A stretch of 57,936 nucleotides of DNA from the IMG/VR virus record IMGVR_UViG_3300021197_001531, positions 1 through 57,936 of that record. One strand, 5' to 3'. The position numbers and the translations under genes are program-made. The DNA comes from a virus. Below the pieces are notes generated by a model that saw only the letters and a list, made by a program, of their open reading frames with translations, ran no database searches and was not told the DNA's origin. Below, in pieces: positions 979-43,800 of this stretch; position 1 is the stretch's first letter; each line of letters begins with the position of its first letter.

Positions 979-1170
979 ATGCACCGGCCTCACCGTGTCA
1001 TGGTCGGTTTTTTCTTCTCTTACTTGCTTGTGGCACTCATTACGGTGTGGTGGGGCACAGCCGTTTGGATGTTCAATGACTTAGGTGAAGGTGTTGAGAT
1101 TTTCAAAGAAGGTGATGAGGCTGAGTTTCATCAAGCCTGCTTCAACGGTATGCGGAGAGGGATTCAGTGA
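979..1170 (+). CDS. small single-pass membrane protein
   Basis: The reading frame gives 63 residues with one strong hydrophobic segment near the N-terminus (GFFFSYLLVALITVWWG, about residues 10-26) and a short acidic tail. The start is uncertain. ATG 979 gives 63 residues. ATG 1000 gives 56 residues and lies about 25 bases after the AT-rich stretch TTTATTTTAT (971-980), which fits a leaderless transcript. The stop overlaps the GTG start of the HMG-CoA lyase-like gene (GTGA), so the two are probably translated together. No family recognised; a small membrane protein of unknown role. Confidence 0.55.
   Translation: MHRPHRVMVGFFFSYLLVALITVWWGTAVWMFNDLGEGVEIFKEGDEAEFHQACFNGMRRGIQ
983..1021 (+). 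terminator. hairpin plus T-run after the first gene
   Basis: ACCGGCC (983-989) can pair with GGTCGGT (1002-1008) with one mismatch, and a T/C-rich run follows (TTTTTTCTTCTCTT). This looks like an intrinsic terminator for the gene ending at 959. It overlaps the 5' end of the next small gene, which argues for the later start of that gene (1000), or for coincidence. Confidence 0.3.
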
Positions 1171-2006
1171 ATATCACCGTGTACGAGGTCGGCCCTCGTG
1201 ACGGTCTTCAATCTATAGAACATTTTATTCAAACGCCGATAAAACAAAATCTGATTGCCGCTTTGTACAATGCTGGTTTAGAGCATGTGGAAGAGGTGAG
1301 TTTTGCTCACCCGAAACTTGTGCCGCAAATGGCTGACGCAGAAGAAGTGTATGACAGGGGTGCCGCTTTAATCATGAACAAGCGTGGGTATGACCGTGCA
1401 GTGGCGGCTGGAGTTGACAAGTTCAACATCGTTTTTAGTCCGTGTGAAACTTTCAACATCAACAACATGGGCAAGACTCGCAGTGAAATTGTGTTGATGT
1501 ACAAGACATTCATGAAAGAAATACCCAAAGACAAGGTGCGAGTGTACATCAGCATGGCATTTGGTTCACCCCATAGCGGCACACCTCGCCTCAACACTCT
1601 CATTTCGTGCATTCGTGATGCCAAGATGTTTGGTAATACTGTGGTGTTTGCTGACACTGTAGGTGTAGCGACTCGTCGGGACATGGAATATGTGGGTGAA
1701 TTGGCGAAAAACGAAGGTGTGCGACCAGCACTCCACCTGCATCACAATGGCAACGAAGGGCGAGCCATGGAATTAGTGCGTCACGCCATCTTCCATGGCA
1801 TTCACGAGATTGATTCCAGTATTGGTGGTCTTGGTGGGTGTCCGTTTGCTACCAACAGTGGGGCAAATTTGTCCACTGAGTCATTGGTTGTTAATTTACA
1901 CGCTTGGGGTTTTGAAACTGGTGTAAATGAAAATGTATTGAAAGAAGCATCACTCATAGCGAGCAAAATAAAATTCAATGATGAGGGCCGTAAAATAGTG
2001 GCATGA
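1167..2006 (+). CDS. HMG-CoA lyase-like DRE-TIM metallolyase (auxiliary metabolic gene)
   Basis: This 279-residue protein belongs to the hydroxymethylglutaryl-CoA lyase family, which cleaves HMG-CoA to acetyl-CoA and acetoacetate in a TIM barrel with a divalent metal. EVGPRDGLQ at residues 7-15 holds the metal-binding Asp12 and catalytic Arg11. HLH at 190-192 supplies metal ligands. GLGGCPFA (221-228) carries the signature active-site Cys225, and N234 lies in the last metal-ligand motif. The family's HCHDT sequence is HLHHN here, so substrate use may differ. Length is close to the bacterial family. The GTG start overlaps the upstream membrane-protein stop. The 3' end overlaps the convergent gene on the other strand by 32 bases. 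Archaea make HMG-CoA for isoprenoid lipids, so a viral lyase could redirect that pool; that is inference. Confidence 0.85.
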   Translation: MNITVYEVGPRDGLQSIEHFIQTPIKQNLIAALYNAGLEHVEEVSFAHPKLVPQMADAEEVYDRGAALIMNKRGYDRAVAAGVDKFNIVFSPCETFNINNMGKTRSEIVLMYKTFMKEIPKDKVRVYISMAFGSPHSGTPRLNTLISCIRDAKMFGNTVVFADTVGVATRRDMEYVGELAKNEGVRPALHLHHNGNEGRAMELVRHAIFHGIHEIDSSIGGLGGCPFATNSGANLSTESLVVNLHAWGFETGVNENVLKEASLIASKIKFNDEGRKIVA

Positions 2007-6518: not shown

Positions 6519-6739
6519 GTATTCACTTACCTCACTTTACTCAAACTTCACTTCACCTAAAATGAGGTAACTGGAATAGTCACTTTACTCATAGGTACTA
6601 CTCTTAATATAATATAATTATAGAATATAGTGAATAAATGAAGTAAACTGGGGGGTCAAAAATGGTGAGTGAAGTTTTGACTAAAGTGACGAAAGCGAAA
6701 CGCTTATATTGACCACTATTTTGACCATGGGTGAGGACA
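6519..6739 (+). promoter_or_regulatory. repeat-rich control region of the GTPase operon
   Basis: This 221-base gap holds no gene. The 12-mer TCACTTTACTCA occurs at 6532-6543 and 6580-6591. GTCACTTTA (6579-6587) and TAAAGTGAC (6682-6690) form a perfect 9-bp inverted repeat. TCAAACTTCACTTCACC (6541-6557) is nearly the complement of GGTGAGTGAAGTTTTGA (6664-6680). TTGACCA is repeated at 6709-6715 and 6721-6727. Between the inverted arms lies the AT-rich TTAATATAATATAATTATAG (6604-6623), a good archaeal TATA candidate. The arrangement suggests an operator around a promoter, possibly bound by the AbrB-like protein of the operon, or a replication-related site. Confidence 0.6.
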
Positions 6740-7306
6740 ATGCAACCGAATGGTAACACTTCCGAAGCCGAAATCCGTTTGATGGGTTTGATTTTAGCGC
6801 AATCCGCACTGGTTGGTTTGGCCATCGGTTTGTTTGATGCTGACATGTGGTTGAACACTGAAGACCCAATGGTAAACGGTTTTACTTATGCCATGGCCGC
6901 TTTCTTTGTACAGGGTATTGCCTACTATTTCTTCAAAATGTTCTTTGAACAAAACATGCAAGAGCGTGTGAGAGTGCAAAACATGGAGCGACAGCGGCAA
7001 GGCCGGTACCGCAGTATGCAATACAATTTTGATAACCGGAGAGCCGAAATGGAATTGCGTATGCAAGAGGCGCAGTTGGAAACTGAGTTGAGTTGGATGG
7101 AGAAAAACCCCGGTAAGATGCCCCCTTCTTGGGGCGTTCCCGGTGGTGCCCCTTCGTTGGTTGAGCAACAAGAAAACAAACTTATCACCAATCCACCGAA
7201 ACATTCAGCGGAAATTAAAACCCCAGTAAATCTTGGTATCAAGCAAGATGAGGATGTACCCGTCAAAAAAGACGGTACGCCCGATAAGCGTTACAAGAGC
7301 GATTGA
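6740..7306 (+). CDS. two-pass membrane protein with coiled-coil tail (GTPase operon)
   Basis: I chose ATG 6740 because GGTGA at 6730-6734 is spaced five bases before it; a GTG at 6731 would add three residues. The 188-residue product has two hydrophobic segments (about residues 12-32 and 50-68). A long charged helix follows (QERVRVQNMERQRQG onward, about 75-130), and then a Pro/Lys-rich tail. That layout suggests a membrane anchor with a cytoplasmic coiled coil. It is the first gene of the operon behind the repeat-rich region and precedes a second membrane protein and the Arf-like GTPase. It may recruit that GTPase to the membrane; this is inference. No family recognised. Confidence 0.7.
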   Translation: MQPNGNTSEAEIRLMGLILAQSALVGLAIGLFDADMWLNTEDPMVNGFTYAMAAFFVQGIAYYFFKMFFEQNMQERVRVQNMERQRQGRYRSMQYNFDNRRAEMELRMQEAQLETELSWMEKNPGKMPPSWGVPGGAPSLVEQQENKLITNPPKHSAEIKTPVNLGIKQDEDVPVKKDGTPDKRYKSD

Positions 7307-7578
7307 GTGGTGATGATGTGGGTCGTATTTTCAAAACACCTACGGATGACTCTACTGAAGCCACGCTTCGTGCAATGCACACACAAAACACACTGGACAA
7401 TTATTACGAAAAGGGCGTTGGATGGCTACGCACTTTTCTTTTTGTTTTGGTTGCCATACTTGGTACCAGTTATTGGGAAATTTATACAGGTGAATCAGCA
7501 TGGGAAAACACAGTGGAATGGATGTGGCAAAAAGTTCAAGATGTCGCAGACTGGCTTTGGGGGCTTGTAAATGGTTGA
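7303..7578 (+). CDS. small single-pass membrane protein (GTPase operon)
   Basis: The product is 91 residues from a TTG at 7303 that overlaps the preceding stop. A GTG at 7318 (86 residues) is an equal alternative with GTGGTGA just upstream. One hydrophobic segment (LRTFLFVLVAILGTSYW, about 43-59) is followed by a Trp-rich amphipathic tail (W-x3-V-x-W-M-W-x4-V-x3-A-x-W-L-W). The 3' end overlaps the GTPase start by eight bases, so the two are translationally coupled. It is probably a partner or membrane tether of the GTPase. No family recognised. Confidence 0.65.
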   Translation: MSGDDVGRIFKTPTDDSTEATLRAMHTQNTLDNYYEKGVGWLRTFLFVLVAILGTSYWEIYTGESAWENTVEWMWQKVQDVADWLWGLVNG

Positions 7579-8287
7579 ACCTGCTGGTACGGCGATGGTC
7601 GGAGCGATGGTGTGGGGAAAAGCCATATTCAACGCATGGAGGCCACGCAAGGTCGGTATTTACGGTGCTGGACTAACAGGTAAAACCACACTTGACCGTT
7701 ATATGACAACACCGGGAGAAATGGAAGAAATTCCCGAAGAAGAACGGACAACACATTTCAAAATGTTAGGTCGTTACAACTTACCCAAACCAACCCGTAA
7801 GCGAGTGTCTTGGAAGGGTGAAAAACGAGTTGTATTTTCTGCTGATGTAGGCGGTCAAGAGCGATTTTGGAACTTGTGGATTGATGACATGGTGAATCGT
7901 AATGTGGAATGTGTTGTTTACATGTTTGATGACCGTGCTATCAAAGGTGGGGAAGAAGCACTTCAGCAAATTGCCGGATTCAAATATCTCGTTGATGCAG
8001 TAGTAAACAGGCAATATCGTTATCGCAACATTCGGAGCAGATGGCGGGGAAAAAAATACACCCCTAAACTCATTATGTTGGTCGCAAATAAAGCAGACCG
8101 CTTTTTTGATGATACAGCGGTTATGCTTTGGCAACAAGAGCGTATCGGTGAGCACAAAATTTTTGATGCGTTTCGTGATGATTTAGTTCGCTTACAAAAA
8201 GCAGGGGTGCCTACACGCCGCTCCTTTATGGCTACACGAATTGGTTGGAATGTTGATACAACCATGATTTCTCTTTTGACGACTTAG
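7571..8287 (+). CDS. Arf/SRβ-like small GTPase
   Basis: This 238-residue protein has the full set of small-GTPase motifs. The P-loop is GAGLTGKT (residues 32-39) and Thr60/61 lies in a switch I-like stretch. DVGGQE (92-97) is the switch II signature of the Arf/Arl/SR-beta branch, followed by a Trp pair as in Arf proteins. NKAD (173-176) sets guanine specificity, and an A-T-R stretch near 211 is a plausible G5. The short N-terminal extension (1-26) is partly hydrophobic and could touch the membrane. It lacks the Gly2 used for myristoylation in Arf. It sits between membrane-protein genes and an AbrB-like gene, all overlapping or nearly so. Prokaryotic Arf-like proteins often act as membrane-linked switches (MglA, for example). 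The role in a virus is unknown; changing the host membrane or egress is a hypothesis. Confidence 0.85.
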   Translation: MVEPAGTAMVGAMVWGKAIFNAWRPRKVGIYGAGLTGKTTLDRYMTTPGEMEEIPEEERTTHFKMLGRYNLPKPTRKRVSWKGEKRVVFSADVGGQERFWNLWIDDMVNRNVECVVYMFDDRAIKGGEEALQQIAGFKYLVDAVVNRQYRYRNIRSRWRGKKYTPKLIMLVANKADRFFDDTAVMLWQQERIGEHKIFDAFRDDLVRLQKAGVPTRRSFMATRIGWNVDTTMISLLTT

Positions 8288-8295
8288 GTGATAAA

Positions 8296-8466
8296 ATGAC
8301 GAAAACTACAGTGGCTTCAGTGGGACAATCCAGCAACAGTGTGCGAACAGTAATCCCAATGTGGATTGCTGAAATGATGAAACTTGAAAAGGGAGCAAAG
8401 ATTGAATGGGAATTGATTCGTACCGAAAAAGGGTACGCCGCCCAGTTCAAAGGTGATGTTTCATGA
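8296..8466 (+). CDS. AbrB/SpoVT-type swapped-hairpin mini-protein
   Basis: A 56-residue product, very short but clearly coding: it has its own ATG nine bases after the GTPase stop, GGTGA upstream at 8287-8291, and an ATGA overlap with the next gene. The sequence (V-A-S-V-G ... S-V-R-T-V-I-P ... MKLEKGAKIEWELI) matches the AbrB/MazE swapped-hairpin fold in pattern and length. Such proteins bind DNA as dimers and often control their own operon. The inverted repeats at 6519-6739 are a natural candidate target. Family call from pattern only. Confidence 0.7.
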   Translation: MTKTTVASVGQSSNSVRTVIPMWIAEMMKLEKGAKIEWELIRTEKGYAAQFKGDVS

Positions 8467-9395
8467 TGAATTTTACACGACAACAACCACAACAGCGTCT
8501 TGGGGATGCTAATGAAGCACACTTGTATGCACTCGCACAGCAAGGTAACGGTGGGTTATCCCATGCCGCACTCATGGAGCAGGCCACAGCGCAACAACAA
8601 ATGCAAAATGTAGCAGAACAAAACAATTTACAAGTTCCTAAAGTCAATTTTTATCCTTCTCGTCACCCCGACCCCCACAAGGCTCGTCGTAAAGACATCA
8701 AACAGGCTTATTCTTTGTTGATGCCTTCTAAACGCAGTATTTTCAATCCAGTGAGAACATTCCTTGGTCGTAAATACAGGTACGACAAGCAAACACATGT
8801 ATGTGTGGTAGATGGTTGCGACTGTGCTACACTCATTCAGTATGACAATCTGTACGCCAAGATAACAGATGAAGATACAGGAAAGAGTCTTTGGGAATTG
8901 TATTGGCGAAATCCAGTAACAGGTGAAGCAGAAGCGTTTATTGCAAGAGATAAAGTGACCAATGGGCGAAAAATGAGGGGTACTTATTGCCCCGAACATC
9001 TTCATCTCTATCATCTGCTATGCAAATGGGAAGCAGAAGAAGAAAAAGTACGAGAAAACAACCCTCGCCGTCTTCGTGACCAAGTAAAGCGTGGTGTCAG
9101 TGTTGTCACTGTACCCGTTGCCTCTATTGCAAAGAAGGATAGAACACCTCCTATGTTGGAAAAATATGAACCATTCTTTGATGAGTTGATGCGAGACTCA
9201 AAGAAAACCGAAGGTATCAACATCATACACTACAAAAATCCAGTTACTAAACAGAACGATGTGACCATGGTGGTGTTTGATTTGCGAATTTTTGAGCATG
9301 AACTGGCTATGATGAATCAACCTACTCCGTCATTTCAAAACATGATGAATCAACAAAACAATCTTGAACATGAAGGTACTGGGTTAGGTGAGTGA
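8463..9395 (+). CDS. Cys/His-rich putative zinc-binding protein (GTPase operon)
   Basis: The product is 310 residues. The first 60 residues are Gln-rich and helical. The middle has Cys114, Cys119, Cys121, Cys176, His179, His181 and Cys187, enough for one or two zinc sites around a beta-rich core. The C-terminus is again Met/Gln/Asn-rich. No family recognised. The start lies inside the stop of the AbrB-like gene (ATGA), and the next gene's ribosome binding site lies at its end, so it is a core member of the operon. The order and overlap with the GTPase suggest a joint function, but nothing shows an enzyme. Confidence 0.7.
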   Translation: MMNFTRQQPQQRLGDANEAHLYALAQQGNGGLSHAALMEQATAQQQMQNVAEQNNLQVPKVNFYPSRHPDPHKARRKDIKQAYSLLMPSKRSIFNPVRTFLGRKYRYDKQTHVCVVDGCDCATLIQYDNLYAKITDEDTGKSLWELYWRNPVTGEAEAFIARDKVTNGRKMRGTYCPEHLHLYHLLCKWEAEEEKVRENNPRRLRDQVKRGVSVVTVPVASIAKKDRTPPMLEKYEPFFDELMRDSKKTEGINIIHYKNPVTKQNDVTMVVFDLRIFEHELAMMNQPTPSFQNMMNQQNNLEHEGTGLGE

Positions 9396-9396
9396 C

Positions 9397-10023
9397 ATGT
9401 TGGGACTGGGCGGAAACAATCAACCACCGATGAATAATGGAACGCTGAATTTAGGAGTTTCGGGGCATCAACAACCGTGGCCAGCCCAGCAACCCCAGCA
9501 AAATCCGTTTGCACAAACACCGCAATCTCCTTTTGTTGGTGGTATGGCTAACGGTGCGGCTGGCCAGTGGGGTCAACAACCAGTTGCCCCACCAAGTGAT
9601 ATTGAAATTCAAATTATGCTTCTTCGTGGTATTGTACCTATGGACAGATTTGTGGCAAGTCAACAAATGGCGACTCTCGTACAAATGCTCAACAACCTTG
9701 TAAGTTTCAGTGTTCTTGAAGTGATGAAAAACGCAGTATTCGCTGAAGATGGTGAAGGAAATCTCAAAATGGACATTACGAAATTGCCCTCCCATCTTCA
9801 AACCATGAGTGCTGAAAACATCAAGGCGGAGTTCAATACACTACAAAGTAATGCACAACAAAACATCACATTGGCTGAGCAAGGACAAAGCCAAATTGCC
9901 GCTTACTCTCAGCAGAATATGATGAGTGGTGCGCTTTCAGCGGCTTTGGCTGATGAAGGTATGATGGAAAAAGTCGGCGGTGGTGTTGGTAGCGTTGCAA
10001 GGGGAATGTTGGGGCTGAGATGA
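9397..10023 (+). CDS. Gln/Pro-rich hypothetical protein (GTPase operon)
   Basis: The start is taken as ATG 9397 because AGGTGA (9386-9391) is five bases upstream; GTG 9388 would add three residues. The 208-residue product begins with about 65 residues rich in Gln, Pro, Asn and Gly, probably disordered. A helical stretch with regular hydrophobic spacing follows (about 70-115), then a Gln-rich helix and a Gly/Ala-rich end. No known domain. Its stop overlaps the next gene's ATG. Confidence 0.65.
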   Translation: MLGLGGNNQPPMNNGTLNLGVSGHQQPWPAQQPQQNPFAQTPQSPFVGGMANGAAGQWGQQPVAPPSDIEIQIMLLRGIVPMDRFVASQQMATLVQMLNNLVSFSVLEVMKNAVFAEDGEGNLKMDITKLPSHLQTMSAENIKAEFNTLQSNAQQNITLAEQGQSQIAAYSQQNMMSGALSAALADEGMMEKVGGGVGSVARGMLGLR

Positions 10024-10262
10024 TGGAAAAGCAATTCATTGGTAATTCGTTTGCCGCAACTTCATTAAATGTCCTTAATCCTCATCGTAGTGTCATTGTT
10101 GACATGATTATGGTACAGATTTTGGCCGCTATCATCACGCTTTCACTTCTTTTGCTTCTCAAAGGAAACGAAATCGGCTCAACCAATGCTTCTTACTTGA
10201 TGGTGGCCCTATTCGGTACTGTTGTTTTCTTGAGTGCTGTTTATTCTCGCATCACTCGCTGA
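10020..10262 (+). CDS. two-pass small membrane protein (GTPase operon)
   Basis: The 80-residue product has two strong hydrophobic segments (about residues 25-47 and 57-76) and almost no loops, a small helical-hairpin protein. Small size and two helices would fit a holin-like or membrane-shaping role, but there is no endolysin next to it, and archaeal viruses rarely use the bacterial lysis pair. It is the last gene of the operon. The final 54 bases overlap the convergent reverse gene. Confidence 0.6.
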   Translation: MMEKQFIGNSFAATSLNVLNPHRSVIVDMIMVQILAAIITLSLLLLLKGNEIGSTNASYLMVALFGTVVFLSAVYSRITR

Positions 10263-10502
10263 AGGCCATTTTCCGATTGGACACTCCGAAGATAGCAGTG
10301 CGGTTTTTATTTTAATAAAACAGCCGCATTGTCGGCATCTCGTATCTTCTTTAAATGGACATGTGTAACAAATCCGTAATCGCTCTTCCCGTAAAATCTC
10401 CGGTGCTTCACGCCCCAACACTTTATCCTTAACTGCGTTGGTGAGACTACGCATGGTTTCGTATGAAAGAGGAACTTTACCCACACGAGGTACCCTTCTC
10501 AT
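10209..10502 (-). CDS. small zinc-ribbon protein of a common virus family
   Basis: The product is 97 residues. The core has Cys45-x2-Cys48, Cys56-x2-Cys59-x-Cys61 and Cys74, with K-T-A-L-L between them and CPIGKW closing the domain. The pattern C-x2-C ... C-x2-C-G-C ... K-T ... C-P-x-G-K-W is familiar from small zinc-finger proteins scattered through phage genomes, whose function is not established. It reads back from the divergent region shared with the candidate small terminase and overlaps the 3' end of the membrane-protein gene. The start is the ATG at 10502, about 25 bases from the central TATA-like box. Confidence 0.7.
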   Translation of the reverse strand: MRRVPRVGKVPLSYETMRSLTNAVKDKVLGREAPEILREERLRICYTCPFKEDTRCRQCGCFIKIKTALLSSECPIGKWPSASDARINSTQENNSTE

Positions 10503-10552: not shown

Positions 10553-11230
10553 ATGGCGGGGGAGCGAGTGATAAAGCGTTCTTGTGCTTTTTGCGTCTGT
10601 GAAGACCGAGATTCATTTGAAGAACAGATGCTTCAAGGCTTCATATCTGCTCGTCAATTGGATAAAGACATGGGTTGGCGAGCCAATACAGCAGACCGAC
10701 ATTACCGGAATCACATGGGAGATTACCACATGGCGGCAAATACAGAATGTGCTTTGTGCACTACGCCGATGCGTGGCGAATACGAGCGTGTCTTTTACGA
10801 AGACGGTAGTACAAGTGAGCAAATCGCTCAAGACTTGGGTATATCAGTGGATAATGTGTTCCATCACATGAAGCATCACTTCCAACCACTTGTGCAAAAG
10901 TCTGCGGCCATTGAGGTTGCACTAACCGCTGGAAATGAAATTTCTTTACTACGCTCAAATGCTGAAAAATTAAATTACAAACTCAGCGAGTTGCTTAACG
11001 AGGGCACCGTACACGAAGATGGGTTTGTGCGAGATGCCGTGGCTTTGCACAAGGAAGTTCGTGAAACCGTCAAAGACTTGTTGCGCTTTCAAGACCAATG
11101 GGGACCAAAAGGTGACGGCCAACAAGTCAATCAAACATTCAACATTTTGCAAGTGGAGTTGGGTAAAGAAAGCCCCGACACATGGATGCGAATTAAAAAA
11201 CAGTTACAAGAAAACATGGGGGCTGAATGA
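10553..11230 (+). CDS. candidate small terminase subunit with duplicated zinc-HTH unit
   Basis: The product is 225 residues. Two similar units follow each other: Cys11-x2-Cys14 with His50/His54, and Cys66-x2-Cys69 with His104/His108. Between each pair lies a helix-turn-helix-like stretch (ISARQLDKDMGW and TSEQIAQDLGIS). The second half is helical (SAAIEVALTAGNEI to RETVKDLL) and could form an oligomer. DNA binding plus a helical oligomerisation region, at the head of the packaging genes and upstream of the large terminase, fits a small terminase. This is inference, because no family was recognised directly. A transcription regulator of the late genes is the main alternative. Confidence 0.55.
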   Translation: MAGERVIKRSCAFCVCEDRDSFEEQMLQGFISARQLDKDMGWRANTADRHYRNHMGDYHMAANTECALCTTPMRGEYERVFYEDGSTSEQIAQDLGISVDNVFHHMKHHFQPLVQKSAAIEVALTAGNEISLLRSNAEKLNYKLSELLNEGTVHEDGFVRDAVALHKEVRETVKDLLRFQDQWGPKGDGQQVNQTFNILQVELGKESPDTWMRIKKQLQENMGAE

Positions 11231-15554: not shown

Positions 15555-17045
15555 ATGAGCGACATGGAAGATTTTATTCACGACATGGACAGGAAGATGT
15601 CTGCTAAGTCGTTTGAATACTTCTTCACTCAAATTTTAGGATTTGACTACTCCGCTCATCACGCATCGTGGGACGAGGGTTTGGCTGAACATCGTTATTA
15701 CTGTGTAAAAGCATCTCGTGACCACGGTAAGTCCGTATTTTTTATGTCTTATGCCCTATGGATTGCCGCCTTTCAACCGGGAACACATGTCATGATTTTT
15801 TCACATTCTCTTGAGCAGACGCTTGAACACATGCGATTCATACGCAACAACATAGAAGGTACACCTTGCTTACGATTCCTCATTCCCGAAGGTCGCCCTT
15901 GGCGAAAGACCTACTTTGAGTTCAATAACGGTAGCCGTATGATGGCAAAGTCAACAGGTGGTGGTACCCGTGGTTTCCACCCGAATGTTGTGGTCTGTGA
16001 CGACATCTTGTGGGGAACAACGGGAACTGAACTTCAGCGTGCCGCAGATTGGTTTTACGGTGTCCTTCTCCCTGTTCTTCACCACACAGGTCGCCTTATG
16101 ATGGTGGGTACTCCGTTTTCATACAACGATTTGTATTCTCAGTTGGAACAAACTGAAACTTTCCAAGTTGAAACATACCCTGCTATCAACAAAGAAGGTG
16201 AGGCGTTGTGGCCCGAACGCTGGGATTTAGAGTCACTTGACCAGCGGCGTTTGACTATGCCAGCCATTCAATTTTCTCGTGAGTACCTGTGTGAACCAAT
16301 CCACGATGTTGCAAGTATGTTCCCTCATGATATATTGGAAAAAGCCCGTAACAAGGATTTAGTGTTGCTTGACCGAGCAGATACAGAATACGATGCTGAC
16401 GGTGAACCTGCTGGAATTTTCGGGCAACATTTCATTGGATGGGACACAGCCATTGCTTCGGATAAGAATGCTGACTTTACAGCCATGACTGTTCTGCGTA
16501 TGTTACCCGAAGAAGATGTAAAACAGGTTGTTGGGATTGTGCATGAAAGAGGTATGACTGGGCTGGCACAAAAGAATCAAATCATGATGCTCAACAATCG
16601 CTTTCAGCCCGACTTGATTGAGTTGGAAGGTAACAACTTCCAACGCATGTTTCAAGCCGAGTTGCTTGAGATGAGGCAAGACATCCCCATCAAGACTTTC
16701 ATCACGACCCGTACACGCAAGGAGAGTCTGTTTATGTCCCTCTTGATGGCGTTTGAGCAGGGTAAGATACAAACACCATATGGAGACAAGCGTAGCCGTG
16801 AATTTACTCATAAATTAGAAACTGAACTCAATCGTTTCGGTATGCAAAAGAGCGGGAAGTTGGAAAGTGTTGGTACACATGACGACTTGGCTATGTCTCT
16901 CGCATTGGCCAATTGGGGTACAAAAGAGTTCAAAGGCTCAGTTGTTCTTCTTGATGATGTACTACCGGGCTTTGATGAGTGGATTCGTGGTAAACCACAC
17001 CGTTCACAAAACGACAATCCGGCTGATGGGTGGATGATACCATAA
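15555..17045 (+). CDS. terL: large terminase subunit
   Basis: The 496-residue protein is the ATPase-nuclease motor that packages DNA through the portal. Walker A is ASRDHGKS (residues 53-60, catalytic Lys59). Walker B is VVVCDD (145-150), with Asp in place of the usual final Glu. VGTP (184-187) is the coupling motif. The C-terminal RNase H-like nuclease has Asp297 (GWDTA), acidic residues 356/358 (LIELEG) and Asp443/Asp444 (THDDLAMSLALA). Length is normal and there is no intein. The gene follows the Pro-rich protein and precedes three Cys-rich mini-proteins, not the portal directly as in most phages. Confidence 0.95.
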   Translation: MSDMEDFIHDMDRKMSAKSFEYFFTQILGFDYSAHHASWDEGLAEHRYYCVKASRDHGKSVFFMSYALWIAAFQPGTHVMIFSHSLEQTLEHMRFIRNNIEGTPCLRFLIPEGRPWRKTYFEFNNGSRMMAKSTGGGTRGFHPNVVVCDDILWGTTGTELQRAADWFYGVLLPVLHHTGRLMMVGTPFSYNDLYSQLEQTETFQVETYPAINKEGEALWPERWDLESLDQRRLTMPAIQFSREYLCEPIHDVASMFPHDILEKARNKDLVLLDRADTEYDADGEPAGIFGQHFIGWDTAIASDKNADFTAMTVLRMLPEEDVKQVVGIVHERGMTGLAQKNQIMMLNNRFQPDLIELEGNNFQRMFQAELLEMRQDIPIKTFITTRTRKESLFMSLLMAFEQGKIQTPYGDKRSREFTHKLETELNRFGMQKSGKLESVGTHDDLAMSLALANWGTKEFKGSVVLLDDVLPGFDEWIRGKPHRSQNDNPADGWMIP

Positions 17046-17871: not shown

Positions 17872-17897
17872 AGTCAAAGGTCAATTGAGTGGTCATT

Positions 17898-19193
17898 ATG
17901 TGGGGGAGTATGTTCATAGGTGACGAGTACGATGTACCGTTGCAAATGAATGACGATTTCTCCAACACGGTGTTGAAGAGTTTATCTCAACACCCTAATT
18001 TTCAACCCGAAAATGTGCCTTTGAGGGTGATTGACAGTGTTGTAAAACAAGATGACATCAAGCCACAATTTGCCATGAATGGCGACGGATGGTTTGAAAG
18101 TAAGTATGGAAAGGACGCTAACACAATCATTCGCATGTGTCGTAAAATGAGGCGACATGATAAATCATTTAAAGAAGAATATGATGGTATTATCAAAGAT
18201 ATTCGTCGTGTTAAAGCGATGGAAGTTGATGCTACCATTAAATCGCTGGATTGGGCAGATGGATTGGAAGATGTCATTCGTAACATTGGTCTTAACGACC
18301 GCTCACTCAAAGCATTACGAAAATTCGGTAGTTCAAGAAGTACCAGCCTACAGAAAGCCTGTCAGCAATACCTCAAAGCCATGACCGTTCTTCAGCATCT
18401 CAATGGATTAGAAGACTGGGAAGCGGAGGACCAGCAGAATTGGGTCAAAGCAAATGAATTGAAAAAGGATGCACAAAAAATGTGGAGGAACACCCTTCAC
18501 CAAATGGATAACCTCAAAAAAACAGAAGTATCTGCTATTGAGTTTGCTTCCGACCTTCTTGAAAAAGAAGGGGCACTCGGTAGTCGTGAAATTATACGAC
18601 GGGGGTACGGTATTATCAATAAATCTATGACACCGGGGCGTATGAGTGCTTTGCTGAAGATGTATGGAGAAGAGGTGGATGTTTACAAAGGAAGCACACG
18701 GCAAACTTTTGTGAAGAAGGGCACTGAGGGTTTCATCGTTAAAGATATGTGGGCATACACCGCCGGATTTGTAGATGCTGACGGTAGCATTTTCATCTCC
18801 GAGCGAGGTGACCCCCGTGTTACTATTGTAGCCAGTGGTAGTAACGGAAAAACTCACTGTGAGGAATTGCAAAAGATGATTGGTTGCGGTAGGCTCGTTT
18901 CCGACCAAAAATTGGCTAAAAACACCATCAAACCAGTTCATCGGCTTATTTTTTCTTCCAAGAACGATATTCGTGAAATTCTTAAAGGGGTATTACCCCA
19001 TTTGAAACTTAAATCGCTACAGGCAAAGGCTGTTTTAGATTACATTGGACAAAAAGACTCCATGCGAAAGACAGAACTGTACCAACTGGTAACTTACAAC
19101 AATTGGAAAGAGCATAAAAACAAAGCCACTTCTCTTCTTAACAAGTGGGGCTTGAGTGCTGACACTATTGGTGGATATGCTGAGGGGTTGTAA
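17898..19193 (+). CDS. virion-cluster protein fused to a LAGLIDADG homing endonuclease
   Basis: The start is uncertain: ATG 17898 (431 residues) is used, and GTG 17889 or ATG 17910 are possible. Residues 1 to about 275 are helical, Lys/Glu/Asp-rich and unrecognised. From about 285 comes a single-motif LAGLIDADG endonuclease domain, with YTAGFVDADGSI as the helix and acidic active-site motif. VTIVAS, the G-C-G-R turn and LPHLKLKSLQAKAVLDYIG complete the usual pattern. One motif implies the enzyme works as a dimer. There is no intein splice block (no Cys/Ser start, no H-N-C end), so it is a fusion or a free-standing endonuclease joined to a host gene. It sits between the terminase and the portal and overlaps the portal start by one base. 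Confidence 0.75.
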   Translation: MWGSMFIGDEYDVPLQMNDDFSNTVLKSLSQHPNFQPENVPLRVIDSVVKQDDIKPQFAMNGDGWFESKYGKDANTIIRMCRKMRRHDKSFKEEYDGIIKDIRRVKAMEVDATIKSLDWADGLEDVIRNIGLNDRSLKALRKFGSSRSTSLQKACQQYLKAMTVLQHLNGLEDWEAEDQQNWVKANELKKDAQKMWRNTLHQMDNLKKTEVSAIEFASDLLEKEGALGSREIIRRGYGIINKSMTPGRMSALLKMYGEEVDVYKGSTRQTFVKKGTEGFIVKDMWAYTAGFVDADGSIFISERGDPRVTIVASGSNGKTHCEELQKMIGCGRLVSDQKLAKNTIKPVHRLIFSSKNDIREILKGVLPHLKLKSLQAKAVLDYIGQKDSMRKTELYQLVTYNNWKEHKNKATSLLNKWGLSADTIGGYAEGL

Positions 19194-20965
19194 TGGCAGA
19201 AGAACAAGGAAGAATTACTCGCTTTCTTTCGGCGTTGGGTACACCCTTCCGTCGTAAGGAATCACCAACACCAACTATGCCGTTGTGGACAAGTGGTATT
19301 CAAGAACCCGTCATGGCGCAAGGTATCACCATACCCGCCCTTTATGCTGTAAGCAATGAATCGTTGATTCTTCGTACAGTTCTCGCTAAACTTCGTCAAG
19401 AAATGTTTCGCCGGGGTTATTACTGGGAAAAGAAATTTGCACGCATTTGCACTGTATGTAGCGAGGAATTTCAAAGTGAAGTTGAAACATGTAGCGAATG
19501 TGGTGGTTCAGTTCGTAAACCCGACATTGATGAGTTGACATACGCAAAATGGTTACTCAAGCAAGAAAACTCAATGGAGCAATCTTTCATACATGTACTC
19601 AACGAGATAGAGGCTGACCTCAACATTGTTGACGACGCCTTTTTGATTTTAGTCAAAGAGTATTTCATTGACCCTAAATCCAAAGAAGTTGCCTTTTTCC
19701 GTGTTAAAGAGATAATGCGTGGTGACCCAATCTTCATGCGTATTGTCGCTGACAAGCGTGGTGTTCGTGGTGGTCGTTACAAGACATGTTTGATACACCG
19801 TGACCAAATTAAAACTCACGCTGAACAAGATACCTGTGAAGAATGCGGCGCAGACCTACACGATGTACACTATGTGAACATGGCCGGTAGCGGTAAAACT
19901 CAATACTTTGTTGAAGGAGAAGTTCTTCATGTCAGTAAGTACAAACCTGCTAAATTGTATGGGCGTTCTCCGGTCAACACCATGTGGCGGCAAGCCATGA
20001 CCTTGACAGCGATGGACAATTACATTTACACCGCTTATCAAAAGCGTCGGATGCCCAAAGGAATCGTTTCGGTCACAACAGACAATTTGGAGTCAATGAA
20101 GTCTTTTTGGAAGGCTGTTGATGAGAAAATGGAGCGTGACCCTCATTACATTCCTAAAGTGGGAATTGAATCTTCCAGTGGTCGTGGGGGTGTAAATTGG
20201 ATTAAATTCATGGACACTCTTGAAGAAATGCAATACATGTCTGTGCGTGATGAAATTCGTAACAGAATAGCCGCTTTTTACGGTGTATCATCTGTTTTTA
20301 TGATTGACAGTGGTAAGTCGGGCGGTCTTAACAATGAAGGTATGCAAATTCTTGTGACCAATCGTGCTGTTGAGTTTGGGCAAAAAGTGTACACCGAAGT
20401 TCTTTTCCCTCGCTTGTTAAAGCAGATGAATATAAGTGACTGGAAACTAACACTGTACCCCAATGAGGAAGAAGATGAGATTACTCGCCTGCGCCGTGAT
20501 TCGGAAGAACTCAATGTTGCACAGCGTATGGCACAACTTGGTTTCATGCCCGAATTGATTGAAGACACGGCAAATCGTGATATTCGCTTTACTTACAAGC
20601 GACCCGAACCTCAACCACCGCAACAAGGTGCACCTCCGGGCGGTGCACCACCACCGGGTATGCCACCCGGTATGCCACCGGGTATGCCACCGGGTATGCC
20701 ACCGGGTATGCCACCGGGTATGCCACCGATGGGCGGTGCTGGACCACAAATGCCACCTCAACTCGCAAGACAAGTTATGCCTCCACCTCAACCCGGCGGG
20801 CAGGGTGTTGGTCTGCGTAACAGGGGTCCAGCGACCCCGGAACGCCGTGGGAGTATGGGGAGCGGCGCACCATTCACCAATGTGCAACAAAGAGGCCCGG
20901 AGCCTTCTATGCAACAGAATTTGAGTAACGCTTTACTAAACGCAAGACGCCCTCGTGGTCAGTAA
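19193..20965 (+). CDS. portal protein with two zinc-ribbon-like insertions
   Basis: The 590-residue product fits a portal in position (after terminase, before protease and capsid) and in pattern. It has a long helical wing, a crown-proximal helix near RDEIRNRIAAFYGVSSVFM, and the GGLNNEGMQI loop typical of portals. Portals form the dodecameric ring at one capsid vertex through which DNA passes. Unusual for the family are Cys86-x2-Cys89 with Cys100-x2-Cys103, and Cys199-x2-His202 with Cys215-x2-Cys218, probably two zinc sites in the wing. The C-terminal 120 residues are low complexity, including six P-P-G-M repeats, and probably disordered. Confidence 0.85.
   Translation: MAEEQGRITRFLSALGTPFRRKESPTPTMPLWTSGIQEPVMAQGITIPALYAVSNESLILRTVLAKLRQEMFRRGYYWEKKFARICTVCSEEFQSEVETCSECGGSVRKPDIDELTYAKWLLKQENSMEQSFIHVLNEIEADLNIVDDAFLILVKEYFIDPKSKEVAFFRVKEIMRGDPIFMRIVADKRGVRGGRYKTCLIHRDQIKTHAEQDTCEECGADLHDVHYVNMAGSGKTQYFVEGEVLHVSKYKPAKLYGRSPVNTMWRQAMTLTAMDNYIYTAYQKRRMPKGIVSVTTDNLESMKSFWKAVDEKMERDPHYIPKVGIESSSGRGGVNWIKFMDTLEEMQYMSVRDEIRNRIAAFYGVSSVFMIDSGKSGGLNNEGMQILVTNRAVEFGQKVYTEVLFPRLLKQMNISDWKLTLYPNEEEDEITRLRRDSEELNVAQRMAQLGFMPELIEDTANRDIRFTYKRPEPQPPQQGAPPGGAPPPGMPPGMPPGMPPGMPPGMPPGMPPMGGAGPQMPPQLARQVMPPPQPGGQGVGLRNRGPATPERRGSMGSGAPFTNVQQRGPEPSMQQNLSNALLNARRPRGQ
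20651..20722 (+). repeat. six tandem 12-bp units encoding PPGM
   Basis: CCACCGGGTATG is repeated six times head to tail with a single base change in the second unit, inside the portal's disordered tail. The units are nearly identical, so copy number probably changes by slippage. Confidence 0.9.
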
Positions 20966-28045: not shown

Positions 28046-29422
28046 ATGCTTGCTATTCAGCGACCCACAGACGGTATCACTCTTCTCAAGAGTGGTAACG
28101 ACTTGGTAGTTGCTGGCTACGCATCGGTTGAACTTGTTGACAAACAAGGTGACCTCATCACTCGTGGTGCTTTGAAGAATGCCTTTGATGGCTTCATGAA
28201 AGGCGAAAAGTACCGAAATGTGCAATTGGCTCACTCCAACATTCAAGTTGGGGAAGTTATTGATTCGTACATTGATTCCAACGGACGCATGTGGAAATCC
28301 GAAACGGATGACACAGGTTTGTTTGTTGTAGTAAAACTCCGCAATGACATTGAGAAGGCTCGTGAAGTAGCCGCTGAAATCCGCAAGGGCAACCTTCGTG
28401 GATTTTCCATTGGAGGGCAAGCATTCAAGCGAGTGCGAAAGTCCGACATGGAAAAAGGCGACTACCAAGAGATTTCAAAAATGGAGTTGCATGAGGTGAC
28501 GATTTGTGAAAAGGGGATTAACCCCGAAGCACAGTTTCGCATTTTGAAGGAGGACACAAACATGAGTGAAGAAAACGATTTGACAGGAATTATGTCACGA
28601 CTTGAAGCCCGACTGGATGCCATGGAAAAGGGAGAATTGCCTCCCCAACTTCGTGAACACATGAAGGGTAAGGGTAGTGATGAAGAAAAGAAACCCGAAA
28701 AAGAAGAAGAAGGTGAAGAAATGAATGAAGAAAAGAAAGAGAACCCCTTTGCAAAGGGAGAATACAGCGATGTTATCTCATCTGAATACTTGAGTTGGAT
28801 GGAAAACACCCTCAAGTCTGCTGGAGTGGACACTGATGGTGCTCGTCACCACTTTGACGCTCTTGAAAAGGCACAACTTGGTGGCTTTGATAACCCCGAT
28901 GCCGTGGACGGTGCTGACTACTTTGCTGGTCAAGTTCGTGGCCGAGGACAAGAAAACGGCACTCCTTCCACCAACGCTATCAGCGCACTCACCTCCAGCG
29001 GCGGTAAAACTCCTGCTGGAGCCATGGGACCGGCTTCGCTTTCCAAGAGTTACATCAACTCCGAAAATGTGAGCGAGTCCGACCTTGAGGCCGCTTACGA
29101 AGTGTACAAAGCCGCCGCACTTGAGCAACATTTCCGCAATGACCTTGAAGGTAACTTTGCTACTCGTTTCAATAGCGAGATGGAAATTGCCAAGGCCGCT
29201 GAAGAAAAGCAACAGTTTGATGCACGAGCACCACTCAGTGAAATCGTGAAATCTATTGAGGCACTTTCGGAGCGCATTGACAACATCGGTACAGGTGAAG
29301 GTATGACCCTCCAAAAGTCAGCCTCTCCTTCCAATATCACTATCCCCTCAACGCAAGACATGGCAAACATGGGCTGGGACGAAGTTCACGCCCTTGCACA
29401 ACGCACAATGCGTGGGGAATGA
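28046..29422 (+). CDS. HK97-type prohead protease fused to a scaffold-like domain
   Basis: The 458-residue product has an N-terminal prohead protease of the HK97/U35 type (about 1-170). It carries His63 (LAHSN), Ser121 in RGFSIGG, and the strand KMELHEVTICEKGINP, where the family has L-x-E-V-S/T. Residues about 175-250 are a Glu/Lys-rich coiled coil. The C-terminal half is helical and fits a scaffolding domain, ending in the 14-residue motif also found in the protein at 21372. Protease-scaffold fusions are known in tailed viruses: the protease cuts the scaffold and the capsid N-terminus at maturation. GGAAGG (28035-28040) serves as ribosome binding site. The major capsid gene follows after 25 bases. 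Confidence 0.85.
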   Translation: MLAIQRPTDGITLLKSGNDLVVAGYASVELVDKQGDLITRGALKNAFDGFMKGEKYRNVQLAHSNIQVGEVIDSYIDSNGRMWKSETDDTGLFVVVKLRNDIEKAREVAAEIRKGNLRGFSIGGQAFKRVRKSDMEKGDYQEISKMELHEVTICEKGINPEAQFRILKEDTNMSEENDLTGIMSRLEARLDAMEKGELPPQLREHMKGKGSDEEKKPEKEEEGEEMNEEKKENPFAKGEYSDVISSEYLSWMENTLKSAGVDTDGARHHFDALEKAQLGGFDNPDAVDGADYFAGQVRGRGQENGTPSTNAISALTSSGGKTPAGAMGPASLSKSYINSENVSESDLEAAYEVYKAAALEQHFRNDLEGNFATRFNSEMEIAKAAEEKQQFDARAPLSEIVKSIEALSERIDNIGTGEGMTLQKSASPSNITIPSTQDMANMGWDEVHALAQRTMRGE

Positions 29423-29447: not shown

Positions 29448-30548
29448 ATGGCAAGAGATTACATTAGAAACATTACTGACATGGAACGATACTACTACGG
29501 TGCGGGTAACTCTATGGGTTACTCCTACTCCGGTAGCGAATTGCTCAAGGCTGACGCACCAATGCTGTCCACGACGGCTGGTACTTACCAAGCCATCTAT
29601 GGGCGCAAAGTTTGGAGCCAGTTGAACCAAGAGTTCAACGCCTTCTCTATCCTACCAAAGCGACCTTGGGAGCGAAGTGGATGGCGAGTCATCACTGAGC
29701 GTCCTTCGTTCAGCGTTGGTGGCGGTGTTGCAGAAAACGCAACCCTCCCCGACACCACCAAGCCCACCTTCCAGCACATTGCCGCCAAGCCAAAGACTGT
29801 GGTTCACACCTTTGACATGAGCGAAACCGCAATGTTCTTGTCCGACAAGGACGATGGATTGGGTGACATCCGTGCAATCCTCAAAGAAGAAATGGGTAAG
29901 CACCACGCAGAACATGTGAACAAGATGCTCACAACCGACAAAGGCACTGTTGCAGGGAACGACTTTGAATCCCTTGACCGTGTGACTGTTGGAGCCTCCG
30001 CTTCTTCCAACGAAGACATGTACTCCATTGACCGCAGTGCTAACTCGTGGTCATTGTCCGAGCACAATGAAAACAGTGGTACCGACCGTAACTTGTCCCT
30101 TGACCAACTGGACGACCTGTTCCAAAAGATTTGGACTCGTGGTGGCAACCCCAAGGTCATCTTGACAGGCTACGACACGCTCATGCGCCTTCAGCAACTT
30201 CTCCAGTCGCAACAGCGATTCATGGAAGAGAAGCGTGTTACGCCTACCTACAACGGTGTGAAAGGTGTCCCCGGTATTGAGGCTGGATTCATTGTGGCTA
30301 CCTACAACGGTGTCCCTATCATCCCTTCCAAGGATGTGCAAACCGACACCTTGAGTCGTATGTATTTCCTTGATACAGATTACCTGTACTTCAGCACTGC
30401 AATTCCAACCCAATACTTTGAGAGCGGTATTGAAACTGGTGACCCGTTTGCCATCAACCGCCTCGGACAAGAAGGAATGTACCGTACCATGGGAGAACTA
30501 TGGACGACTTTCTTCGGTGGCCACGGCTCAGTCCGTGACCTCAAGTGA
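29448..30548 (+). CDS. major capsid protein, HK97 fold
   Basis: The product is 366 residues with an optimal ribosome binding site (GAGGTGA at 29434-29440). The pattern fits an HK97-fold capsid protein. There is a short N-terminal arm, then an E-loop with SGWRVITERPSFSVGGG and a helix-rich P-domain (GDIRAILKEEMGKHHAEHVNKML). The A-domain has the strand NPKVILTGYDTLMRLQQLL, and the strand GVPIIPSKDV comes near the end. Location right after the protease-scaffold and before small head proteins and connectors is the standard order. Codon use is strongly biased towards C-ending codons compared with the upstream giant gene, as expected for the most abundant protein. Absence of a long delta domain agrees with a separate scaffold. 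Confidence 0.9.
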   Translation: MARDYIRNITDMERYYYGAGNSMGYSYSGSELLKADAPMLSTTAGTYQAIYGRKVWSQLNQEFNAFSILPKRPWERSGWRVITERPSFSVGGGVAENATLPDTTKPTFQHIAAKPKTVVHTFDMSETAMFLSDKDDGLGDIRAILKEEMGKHHAEHVNKMLTTDKGTVAGNDFESLDRVTVGASASSNEDMYSIDRSANSWSLSEHNENSGTDRNLSLDQLDDLFQKIWTRGGNPKVILTGYDTLMRLQQLLQSQQRFMEEKRVTPTYNGVKGVPGIEAGFIVATYNGVPIIPSKDVQTDTLSRMYFLDTDYLYFSTAIPTQYFESGIETGDPFAINRLGQEGMYRTMGELWTTFFGGHGSVRDLK

Positions 30549-40865: not shown

Positions 40866-43800
40866 ATGGTTGCAATCGGTCGCAGTAGTCACGCCTTCTT
40901 CTTTGATGGCGTGAGCGATTCGGTGATTATCCCTCAAGGTCGCTTTACCAAGACTGGTGTTAAGGATGCTGATGGCAACAAACTCATGACCAAAACCCTA
41001 CAGGGTAGCGGCGACATTGTTTCAATTAACGGTAAAACAATTGCAGATTTCGTAATTGAGGCATGGGTCGTTCCCGACTGTGGTGGTATCATTGCTCACC
41101 GAGAAGGGCAATTTACGCTTGAAATGGGCACAGTGGACACTCCCGGCCCTGCTGTGTTCACCGTTCAAGTTGAGTCACTGCAAGGCCCGTCTTATTTCCG
41201 TTTAGCAACCGCCTATGACGCGTCCACCCGTTGGGATGGTATCGTGTACCCTCAACAGGAGCACGGTGGTATTCACGATTCGTACAACCGTTATGACACA
41301 AGCAACTACGGTGATGCTACAAATCTCAACTTCAACAACCGACCGTTGTATCATGTCGTGGCTGGTATCAACCAAGACCGTGTGTTTTTGGCTGTCAACG
41401 GTGAGGTTGTTGCTGAGCAGGACATCCCGCCCGAAACTCGTCTTGCACGCTCTACTGAACATGTGTATCTTGGTGGTAAAGGTGGTGAGTTCCGTGGAGC
41501 AATTGAGGCTATTCATTTCTCTAACGAGTTTGACGAGAATATGATTCAACCTTCTATGGCGGTTAAAAGTTTGACTACTTCGGCCTTGTTCCGCTTTGAA
41601 GAACCCATTGATGTTGTGCAAGGAACCTACGATTTCAATGCCTATACTGTGACTGATGCGAGCACCAAGACCCTTACGATGAGTACCACTAACGCACAGG
41701 CTCTCATCGCTCGTTTGACGGGTAAAGCGTATGATTCATCCACCCCCACGACCACCTTCACGGCCAACCCGTATAGCATGGGTAACTACAAAGTTGTTGA
41801 CTACTACACAAATACCGGAACACCGACCACGCTGGCGGTTCCTCACACGCCCTACAACCTACTCATCAACCCCGGTGCTATCAACCGCAACACGCAGAAG
41901 CCCAATCAGTCCCCACCCGAACGGGTCCGATTGGAAAGCATCAACGGGAGCACAGGTGTTGTCACCTTCTCCAGTATTCACATTGACTTCGTGAACGGCA
42001 CAAGCGGCATCCGTGGTGCCCTGCACAGTCGTACCGCTGATGTTGACAATTACTTCGTGGTCGTTGGTGCTGACTTGCTCATTGACAATGGCACAGGTAA
42101 GCCCTATCAGCCTCCTCATTACGGCACTCAAATCTTTGACAAGACTGGGCAAATGGTTCTTGATGAGAGCAACACGGAAAACCACGGGTTGGTGTACTCC
42201 AATCGGATGGCCACCACCGACACGGACACGAACAATCCCTTTGCGGTCACTTGGCCTGCTGGTCTTGACACTCTTTTCCAAATCGGTCACAGTGGACGAC
42301 ACGCCTTTTCTCACATCACAGGTCATGAATACATGCGCCGTTTCCCAAAGCCTGCTGACCTCGTTGTTGACCAGCAAGCAGACGGTTCGGCTGACATTGT
42401 ACAAATGGCGTATGACTCCAACACTCGCAACATTGACGAAATGTTTGTGATGAACTCACTGGTTGATTTCTATTCCGAAACTTTGGAGGCACCTATCGCT
42501 CGTATTGAAAACTCGTCCAGCGTGGCCACCATCACGCACAACGGCCTTCCAGCCAGCAAGCGTGAACTTATCGCCATTGGTGGTAGCGGTTTCAAGTACG
42601 CCGCTTTCATGCTTAAAGGACCAGTTCCCGAAACAGGAGCGATTGACGAGAACAATCGCTTGCATCATCTTGTTCCCGAAACTGAAAGCCGTGTCGCTCT
42701 CTTGCATGTTCCCGCCCTCAAAACGAGCCATGACCTTGCTCCTTATGTTGAGATACACTACAACGCTGTTGACCTCACGGGTGCCAGCATGGGTGAAAGC
42801 GCACCAATGTTGATGGTGGAAAAGACCGTACCAGCGGGTTCGTTTGATTTGGGAAGCGGTACACGGGTGCTGGATGTCATTACCTCCGACCTCGCTAACT
42901 GCACACTTTATTCACCCGGCGGTGTGATTTACCTGTCAAACGCTATCAGCGGTTACGGTTCACTCATGCAGGAGTCGCATACACTGATTGGTGACAACAC
43001 GGGTGGTCAAGAGAGCGATACTGAACTGGATTACTCTCGCACGCCCGAACTGTACACGCCCGTGAGCGATGTCAACGCTGAACCAGCCAGTCCACCCAAG
43101 GCCATTGCCCGCTCCCACAACTCCAGTACACACGAATCAGTGTATCATAGATTGGCCATTGAGAGCATGTCGTCAAGTGCTACGGACACAATCGTTGACG
43201 AAGGTGCAGGTAAGCGTACACGCCAGCCAACTACGGACAAGACAGGCACGGGCGTGTTTGACCTCGGCCCCACCACCCATTCAAGTCGTGTCTTTGAGAT
43301 GTTTAACATCATTGACAATGTTTTGATTACTGATGAAGCAGGTTTGCTGGCAAAGATTTTCGTCCAGCCATCTGTTAAATCACGAGTAAATCAATTGTCT
43401 TTGGTGCGTTCCCTTGGTGCAGGAGACACACCCAACATCGCCAGCATCATGTTCCTCATGAGTCGCTGTCGGGTGCGTGGGGTGTCTAAGCAAGAAAGCC
43501 CCGAAGGGAACATGTCCACCGTGGTTGTTACAGCAACAGGCATCGCTGATTCATTCGTCAACGAGAATGTGTCCGTGATTGGTAGCGGCTCACCCGATTC
43601 ACATGTGGTGAAGGAGATTGAACCCAATGCGCCTGTCGTGACTGTCACGCTGGGTGGGCCGGGACAAGGTGGTGTAAACACCAAGCCTACCTTTGACCCC
43701 AGCCCGTTGATGCGCTTACCGGGTTCAACTCGTCGTAACTGCGTGGTGCAGGCAAAGGTGGTTCACACTGCTACTGTGAGTGCACTTCCCTTTTCAATGA

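Follow-up and report, generated by a model that had tools for sequence, protein, structure and literature searches.

Does a tailed virus of archaea need a small GTPase of its own, and what might it do with one? The question is raised by a 57,936-nucleotide stretch of viral DNA (IMG/VR record IMGVR_UViG_3300021197_001531, positions 1 to 57,936; hereafter the window), which is assigned from its sequence to the magroviruses (Magrovirales), tailed viruses of Poseidoniales (PMC10768690, PMC12999244). Seven plus-strand open reading frames (ORFs), A to G, are packed in 6731-10262 with intergenic gaps of -8 to +8 nt (Table 1). They encode membrane proteins with two (A), one (B) and two (G) transmembrane (TM) segments, a small GTPase (C), an AbrB/MazE-like protein (D), a Cys/His protein (E) and a protein with a Gln/Pro-rich N-terminus (F). 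An earlier note on this DNA had described seven overlapping or tightly spaced genes for three membrane proteins, a switch GTPase, an AbrB-like mini-protein, a Cys/His protein and a Gln/Pro-rich protein, and all of these elements were recovered. Its view of a seven-gene system stood in part: the order is conserved and the membrane partners are constant, but the system resolves into a five-gene core (A, B, C, E and F) and two genes, D and G, specific to the lineage of the window (lineage 1). We tentatively favour the reading that this core is a late, virus-encoded membrane switch that may remodel the host membrane so that virions can assemble or leave.

Conservation of the cassette in two lineages

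Relatives of C were collected in IMG/VR scans (118 in the first, 215 and 208 in two wider ones, with overlap between the sets). All GTPase-seeded loci read A-B-C-(D)-E-F-G-H, followed by the gene for the terminase large subunit (TerL), as far as the DNA reaches. Seeding with TerL or with the major capsid protein (MCP) gave sets that share loci and contigs and are not fully independent. The cassette stands in order in 39/39 TerL-seeded loci with >9.5 kb upstream of TerL, and four of these loci lack only the first cassette genes, as would be expected if the available sequence ends there. Among MCP-seeded records, the GTPase is present in all 15 that extend 22.8 kb or more upstream of the MCP and in none of the 13 that extend less far. 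The same order in every relative with enough DNA indicates that it is not due to chance. Two records longer than 95 kb that lack the GTPase (L201 and L515) were considered as counter-examples and rejected, as both stop short of its expected place. Every near-complete record whose contig reaches the GTPase site holds one copy per genome length, and the median identity of C (70%) is close to that of TerL (73%). One record of 184,733 bp (L431) has two GTPase copies 91.8 kb apart and is probably a genome assembled twice over.

A second, diverged lineage came from a profile search of the metagenome-assembled genomes (MAGs) that had yielded viral contigs, which gave two more GTPases (E ~1e-31) on contigs carrying A-B-C-E-F-like genes. 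This lineage 2 has 188 relatives in IMG/VR, many on contigs of 92-97 kb. Both its MCP and its protease match their window counterparts (E ~1e-75), its GC content is ~35%, and two separate genes encode its PolB, an arrangement described by the International Committee on Taxonomy of Viruses (ICTV) for Aoguangviridae. The GTPases of the two lineages share ~30% identity, and between-lineage hhalign comparisons pair C with C (99.9%), E with E (94.8%) and F with F (48%, F's best partner by far). Judged by these genomes, all sampled abundant tailed viruses of ocean archaea seem to carry the five-gene unit. The earlier note had made its claim depend on gene order being kept in relatives, and the order recurs in archaeal virus contigs of both lineages.

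That the block is a neutral passenger, its genes neighbours by descent with no joint function, is highly improbable: it is kept as a unit despite ~30% GTPase identity and two genomic positions, and dN/dS lies at 0.03-0.15 across the cassette where computable, a sign of purifying selection on all seven genes.

The two positions bear on function. In lineage 2 the order is MCP, three small genes, A-B-C-E-F and tail-side genes, with short gaps, and in lineage 1 the core precedes the TerS-like gene H and TerL; the block is therefore kept at two places in the late region. This invites a virion or head-assembly explanation, in which A and B would anchor procapsid or portal assembly at the membrane, or would be virion parts that ease DNA entry, and the GTPase would time assembly or packaging. 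The heads of phage T4 start on the membrane. Both sites are in keeping with such a module, the lineage-2 block lying between the capsid cluster and the tail genes and the lineage-1 block directly upstream of the packaging genes, and the MCP relative HVTV-1 has a one-TM gene (gene 124, L082:23406-23738) four genes after its MCP, at roughly the lineage-2 site. Against it, the late half of HVTV-1 (47 kb) has no match to any cassette profile tested, C, E and F included, so its virions form without these three; no PHROG head or tail family is matched by the cassette proteins scanned, and membranes are normally absent from tailed virions. The explanation is somewhat unlikely on balance but remains a strong rival because of the lineage-2 position, and the data do not separate it from a membrane switch.

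The GTPase and its relatives

C carries the motifs of Ras superfamily small GTPases (TRAFAC): G1 (GAGLTGKTT), G3 (DVGGQE) and G4 (NKAD) are all intact, the switch I Thr (RT) is conserved, and the G5 place holds a conserved MATR/K stretch, or SAK in lineage 2. The intact P-loop, DVGGQE and NKAD reported in the earlier note are also kept in relatives: NKxD occurs in 242 of the 243 unique sequences selected by their P-loop, and DxxG in nearly all. A helix at the N-terminus (residues 5-23 in the model, moment 0.20-0.28) is hydrophobic in both lineages; Gly2, as needed for myristoylation, is absent from C in the aligned sequences.

Against the PDB, a two-lineage profile of C finds Rab33B (E 0.0012), an Asgard-type GTP-binding protein (8oun; E 0.0018) and SR-beta (E 0.027). 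The structural comparison proposed in the earlier note, made with AlphaFold2 and Foldseek, leads to small GTPases as well (E 1e-7, with Rac, Rab and Rho on top), a match that holds at superfamily level only. No family in Pfam, NCBIfam or PHROG is reached by C at its cut-off. For Pfam Arf (PF00025) there is no match in the window genome, and four of 16 members match with a best E of 0.021, below the cut-off; the best score for SR-beta (PF09439), in lineage 2, is 17.8 bits (E 0.0022) against a cut-off of 25. Among the few archaeal groups compared by hhalign, Asgard Arf-like proteins are closest (99.07%, E 1.4e-18, 140 columns), followed by an unnamed group (97.8%), a Ras (96.3%) and ArvA (84.2%, over 38 columns only). 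As far as sequence can tell, C is a divergent Ras-superfamily GTPase, nearest by profile to archaeal Arf-like proteins; within this known superfamily it forms a new branch. The Arf-like identity proposed earlier is thus upheld as nearest kinship and not as membership of the Pfam family. The possibility raised alongside it, that C is a DNA-packaging ATPase, was rejected: C compares to Ras, Rho, Rab, Arf and SR-beta proteins, the G motifs differ, and TerL is a separate gene elsewhere.

With the Asgard Arf-like GTPases (L564, L566-L570; D[MLV]GGQ-x-x-FW-x-LW) the viral protein shares the best profile match and a common FWxLW switch II context; unlike C, which has its own N-terminal helix, those proteins have an extra N-terminal domain of ~100 aa and pass the Pfam Arf cut-off. 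Eukaryotic Arf, SR-beta and Rab proteins share the G-domain fold and motifs, with weak PDB sequence matches, but C lacks an N-myristoyl glycine, has unrelated partners and falls within no curated family. The bacterial polarity switch MglA/MglB is likewise a Ras-like switch in a prokaryote; unlike it, the cassette is viral, includes membrane proteins and has no roadblock match among its proteins.

The nearest working analogue is the archaeal ArvABC (OapABC) system, of which the cassette is not a member. In Haloferax, vesiculation is driven by ArvA (PMC10927574), an Arf-like GTPase that has an amphipathic helix at its N-terminus and shares its operon with a Zn-ribbon protein. Both systems combine an archaeal-type small GTPase bearing a membrane-binding N-terminal helix with a zinc-type operon partner, and the stretch from P-loop to switch I is similar in C and ArvA. 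These likenesses would suit a captured vesiculation operon that releases virus in vesicles, an idea that we find scarcely credible: switch II reads D-x-PG in ArvA (DMPG in OapB neighbours) and D-x-[GA]-G in viral C, no OapB/DUF2073 or DUF2072 Pfam match occurs in A-G, and Arf-like GTPases match C far better than ArvA does. Unlike the cellular ArvABC operon, moreover, the viral cassette includes A and B, both membrane proteins, and is set in a late region.

No match to A, C, E or the lineage-2 C was found by tblastn in 50,697 phage records, and the C profile gave distant GTPases or none in 196 genomes of the Asgard-MAG group and 100 of the Maricaulis-MAG group, Poseidoniales genomes lying outside the search. 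Within the reach of these searches, recent acquisition of C from a host was rejected as an origin; a scan of the genome collection gave only three mis-binned viral contigs. Magrovirus contigs (L083, L084, L085, L398-L401) are mis-binned in MAGs labelled Asgard archaeon, Maricaulis and Cytophagaceae, and these bins are contaminated.

A role in host take-over or superinfection exclusion, with the membrane complex blocking other viruses or rewiring the host surface or signalling through an Arf-like mimic, is unlikely. The nearest cellular relatives found are archaeal Arf-like GTPases, as a mimic would imply, and D resembles a regulator. Arms-race genes vary, however, and the cassette is constant in all sampled magroviruses whose DNA extends far enough, is under strong purifying selection, lies in the late region and has no match in PADLOC. 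A fixed core set inside the late region, with no PADLOC match, also leaves defence or counter-defence as the least supported of the functions suggested in the earlier note.

As a core unit of tailed viruses, the module fits no known system that was found, and its function is predicted. The earlier note knew of no such described system, and none matching it was found in the literature searched. No account of a magrovirus or Poseidoniales virus with a GTPase was found, the original 2017 and 2025 magrovirus papers being outside the scope of that search. The cassette goes unmentioned in the ICTV profiles and the magrovirus paper searched, with a table entry in the 2017 and 2025 originals possible.

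A predicted membrane switch

In the mechanism that we propose, C would dock on the host cytoplasmic membrane through its hydrophobic N-terminal helix together with A and B. GTP binding would switch on a complex with F and A's charged tail as possible scaffold or effector. E, probably a zinc protein, would regulate or couple the cycle, possibly in a role like that of a GTPase-activating protein (GAP). Acting late, the complex would deform or organize the membrane so that virions can be assembled and leave a host that has no peptidoglycan and for which no holin/endolysin pathway is known.

Several observations argue for such a membrane switch. The same block occurs in two diverged lineages, both times amid virion and packaging genes; the GTPase occurs once per genome length, is conserved to about the degree of TerL and retains its motifs in 242-243 of 243 relatives; the N-terminal helix occurs in both lineages; and A, B and also G are membrane proteins. 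By analogy, ArvA offers a tested precedent for a small GTPase that shapes archaeal membranes (PMC10927574).

Other observations weigh against it. DxGG is kept in most C relatives, but the residue at the catalytic Gln place is Q, E or D; many of the relatives have Glu or Asp there, and hydrolysis may therefore be weak. The AlphaFold2 model of C is of medium confidence (pLDDT 70.5). For E, whose predicted structure has a pLDDT of 78.5, Foldseek gave no PDB match at E 0.001, so the GAP-like role is an analogy only. No significant A-A or B-B homology between the lineages was detected by hhalign, their pairing being by position and topology. The lineage-2 cassette sits at the usual site of virion proteins, which fits a role in the virion or in head assembly equally well.

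Magroviruses are widespread in the surface ocean, and the ICTV profiles and papers searched describe no exit genes for them. A 2015 review found no identified holin in isolated archaeal viruses and left the lysis of euryarchaeal tailed viruses unexplained, and the exit of most archaeal tailed viruses from cells without peptidoglycan is an open question (PMC4456609). The cassette offers a concrete five-gene set to test for magrovirus assembly or release. That a whole order of tailed viruses of archaea shapes the host membrane for assembly or exit with an Arf-like GTPase and dedicated membrane proteins of its own is possible rather than probable; if true, a membrane-remodelling machine driven by a small GTPase would be a core function of abundant archaeal tailed viruses. 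If C works like Arf or ArvA, membrane control by small GTPases would also cover a core function of tailed viruses, a point relevant to how archaea and their viruses exchange such GTPases.

Cassette genes and genomic context

Within the cassette, A may begin at ATG 6740, just upstream of which lies a conserved GAGG. B probably starts at GTG 7318, giving 86 aa, because relatives begin there and this start restores the usual 11-nt gap between A and B. The leader before A is probably a promoter/operator, and its repeated motifs are a possible operator, perhaps for D. D itself is a probable DNA-binding regulator by its likeness to the Pfam family MazE_antitoxin (PF04014), matched by 11 of 13 D relatives (best E 1.1e-5). 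In E, the pattern C...G...TYCPxH is invariant in both lineages.

Table 1. Features of the window, with positions in nucleotides.
Feature	Positions	Strand	Remarks
HMG-CoA lyase-like auxiliary gene	1167-2006	+	patchy
AT-rich leader before A	6519-6730	+	repeated TTCACTT/AGTGAA-type motifs, TATA-like stretch; conserved in aligned close relatives
A	6731-7306	+	two TM, long charged cytoplasmic-type tail; core
B	7303-7578	+	one TM; core
C	7571-8287	+	small Ras/Arf-like GTPase, 238 aa, hydrophobic N-terminal helix; core
D	8296-8466	+	AbrB/MazE-like small protein; lineage 1 only, about half of those loci
E	8463-9395	+	Cys/His protein, probable zinc protein; core
F	9388-10023	+	Gln/Pro-rich N-terminus, conserved C-terminal part; core
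G	10020-10262	+	two TM, 80 aa, holin-like in topology only; lineage 1 only
Zinc-ribbon ORF	10209-10502	-	DUF6171 (PF19668, E 4e-10); overlaps end of G
H	10553-11230	+	TerS-like, Cys/His and helix-turn-helix; starts packaging genes; constant neighbour, outside core
TerL	15555-17045	+	phrog_38, E 8e-59
LAGLIDADG/HNH endonuclease-like ORF	17889-19193	+	between TerL and portal
Portal	19193-20965		clear assignment
Head protease	28046-29422		clear assignment
HK97-type MCP	29448-30548	+	phrog_24667, E 4e-61
5580-aa ORF	40866-57608	+	after tape-measure region

The Magrovirales assignment rests on the likeness of the MCP, the HMG-CoA lyase-like gene, and the fit of PolB and of the relatives' genome length. 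A Druskaviridae-related HK97 MCP, PolB and a genome of ~90-110 kb characterize the order; the window MCP shares 34-36% identity with its counterparts in HVTV-1 (36%) and related haloviruses, 32 of 33 related records carry PolB, and long related records are mostly 82-118 kb. The window covers just part (58 kb) of its genome, and its own PolB therefore does not show. The ICTV profiles of Magrovirales (Aoguangviridae, Apasviridae) agree in genome size, MCP, PolB (split in lineage 2) and HMG-CoA lyase, and differ in making no mention of a GTPase cassette. The HMG-CoA lyase-like gene is found in 13 of 33 related long records.

The minus-strand zinc-ribbon ORF separates the cassette from the packaging genes, and a similar ORF occupies the same place in a lineage-1 relative (L085). 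The 5580-aa ORF, whose first 1667 aa have no PHROG match, probably encodes a giant tail or adhesion protein.

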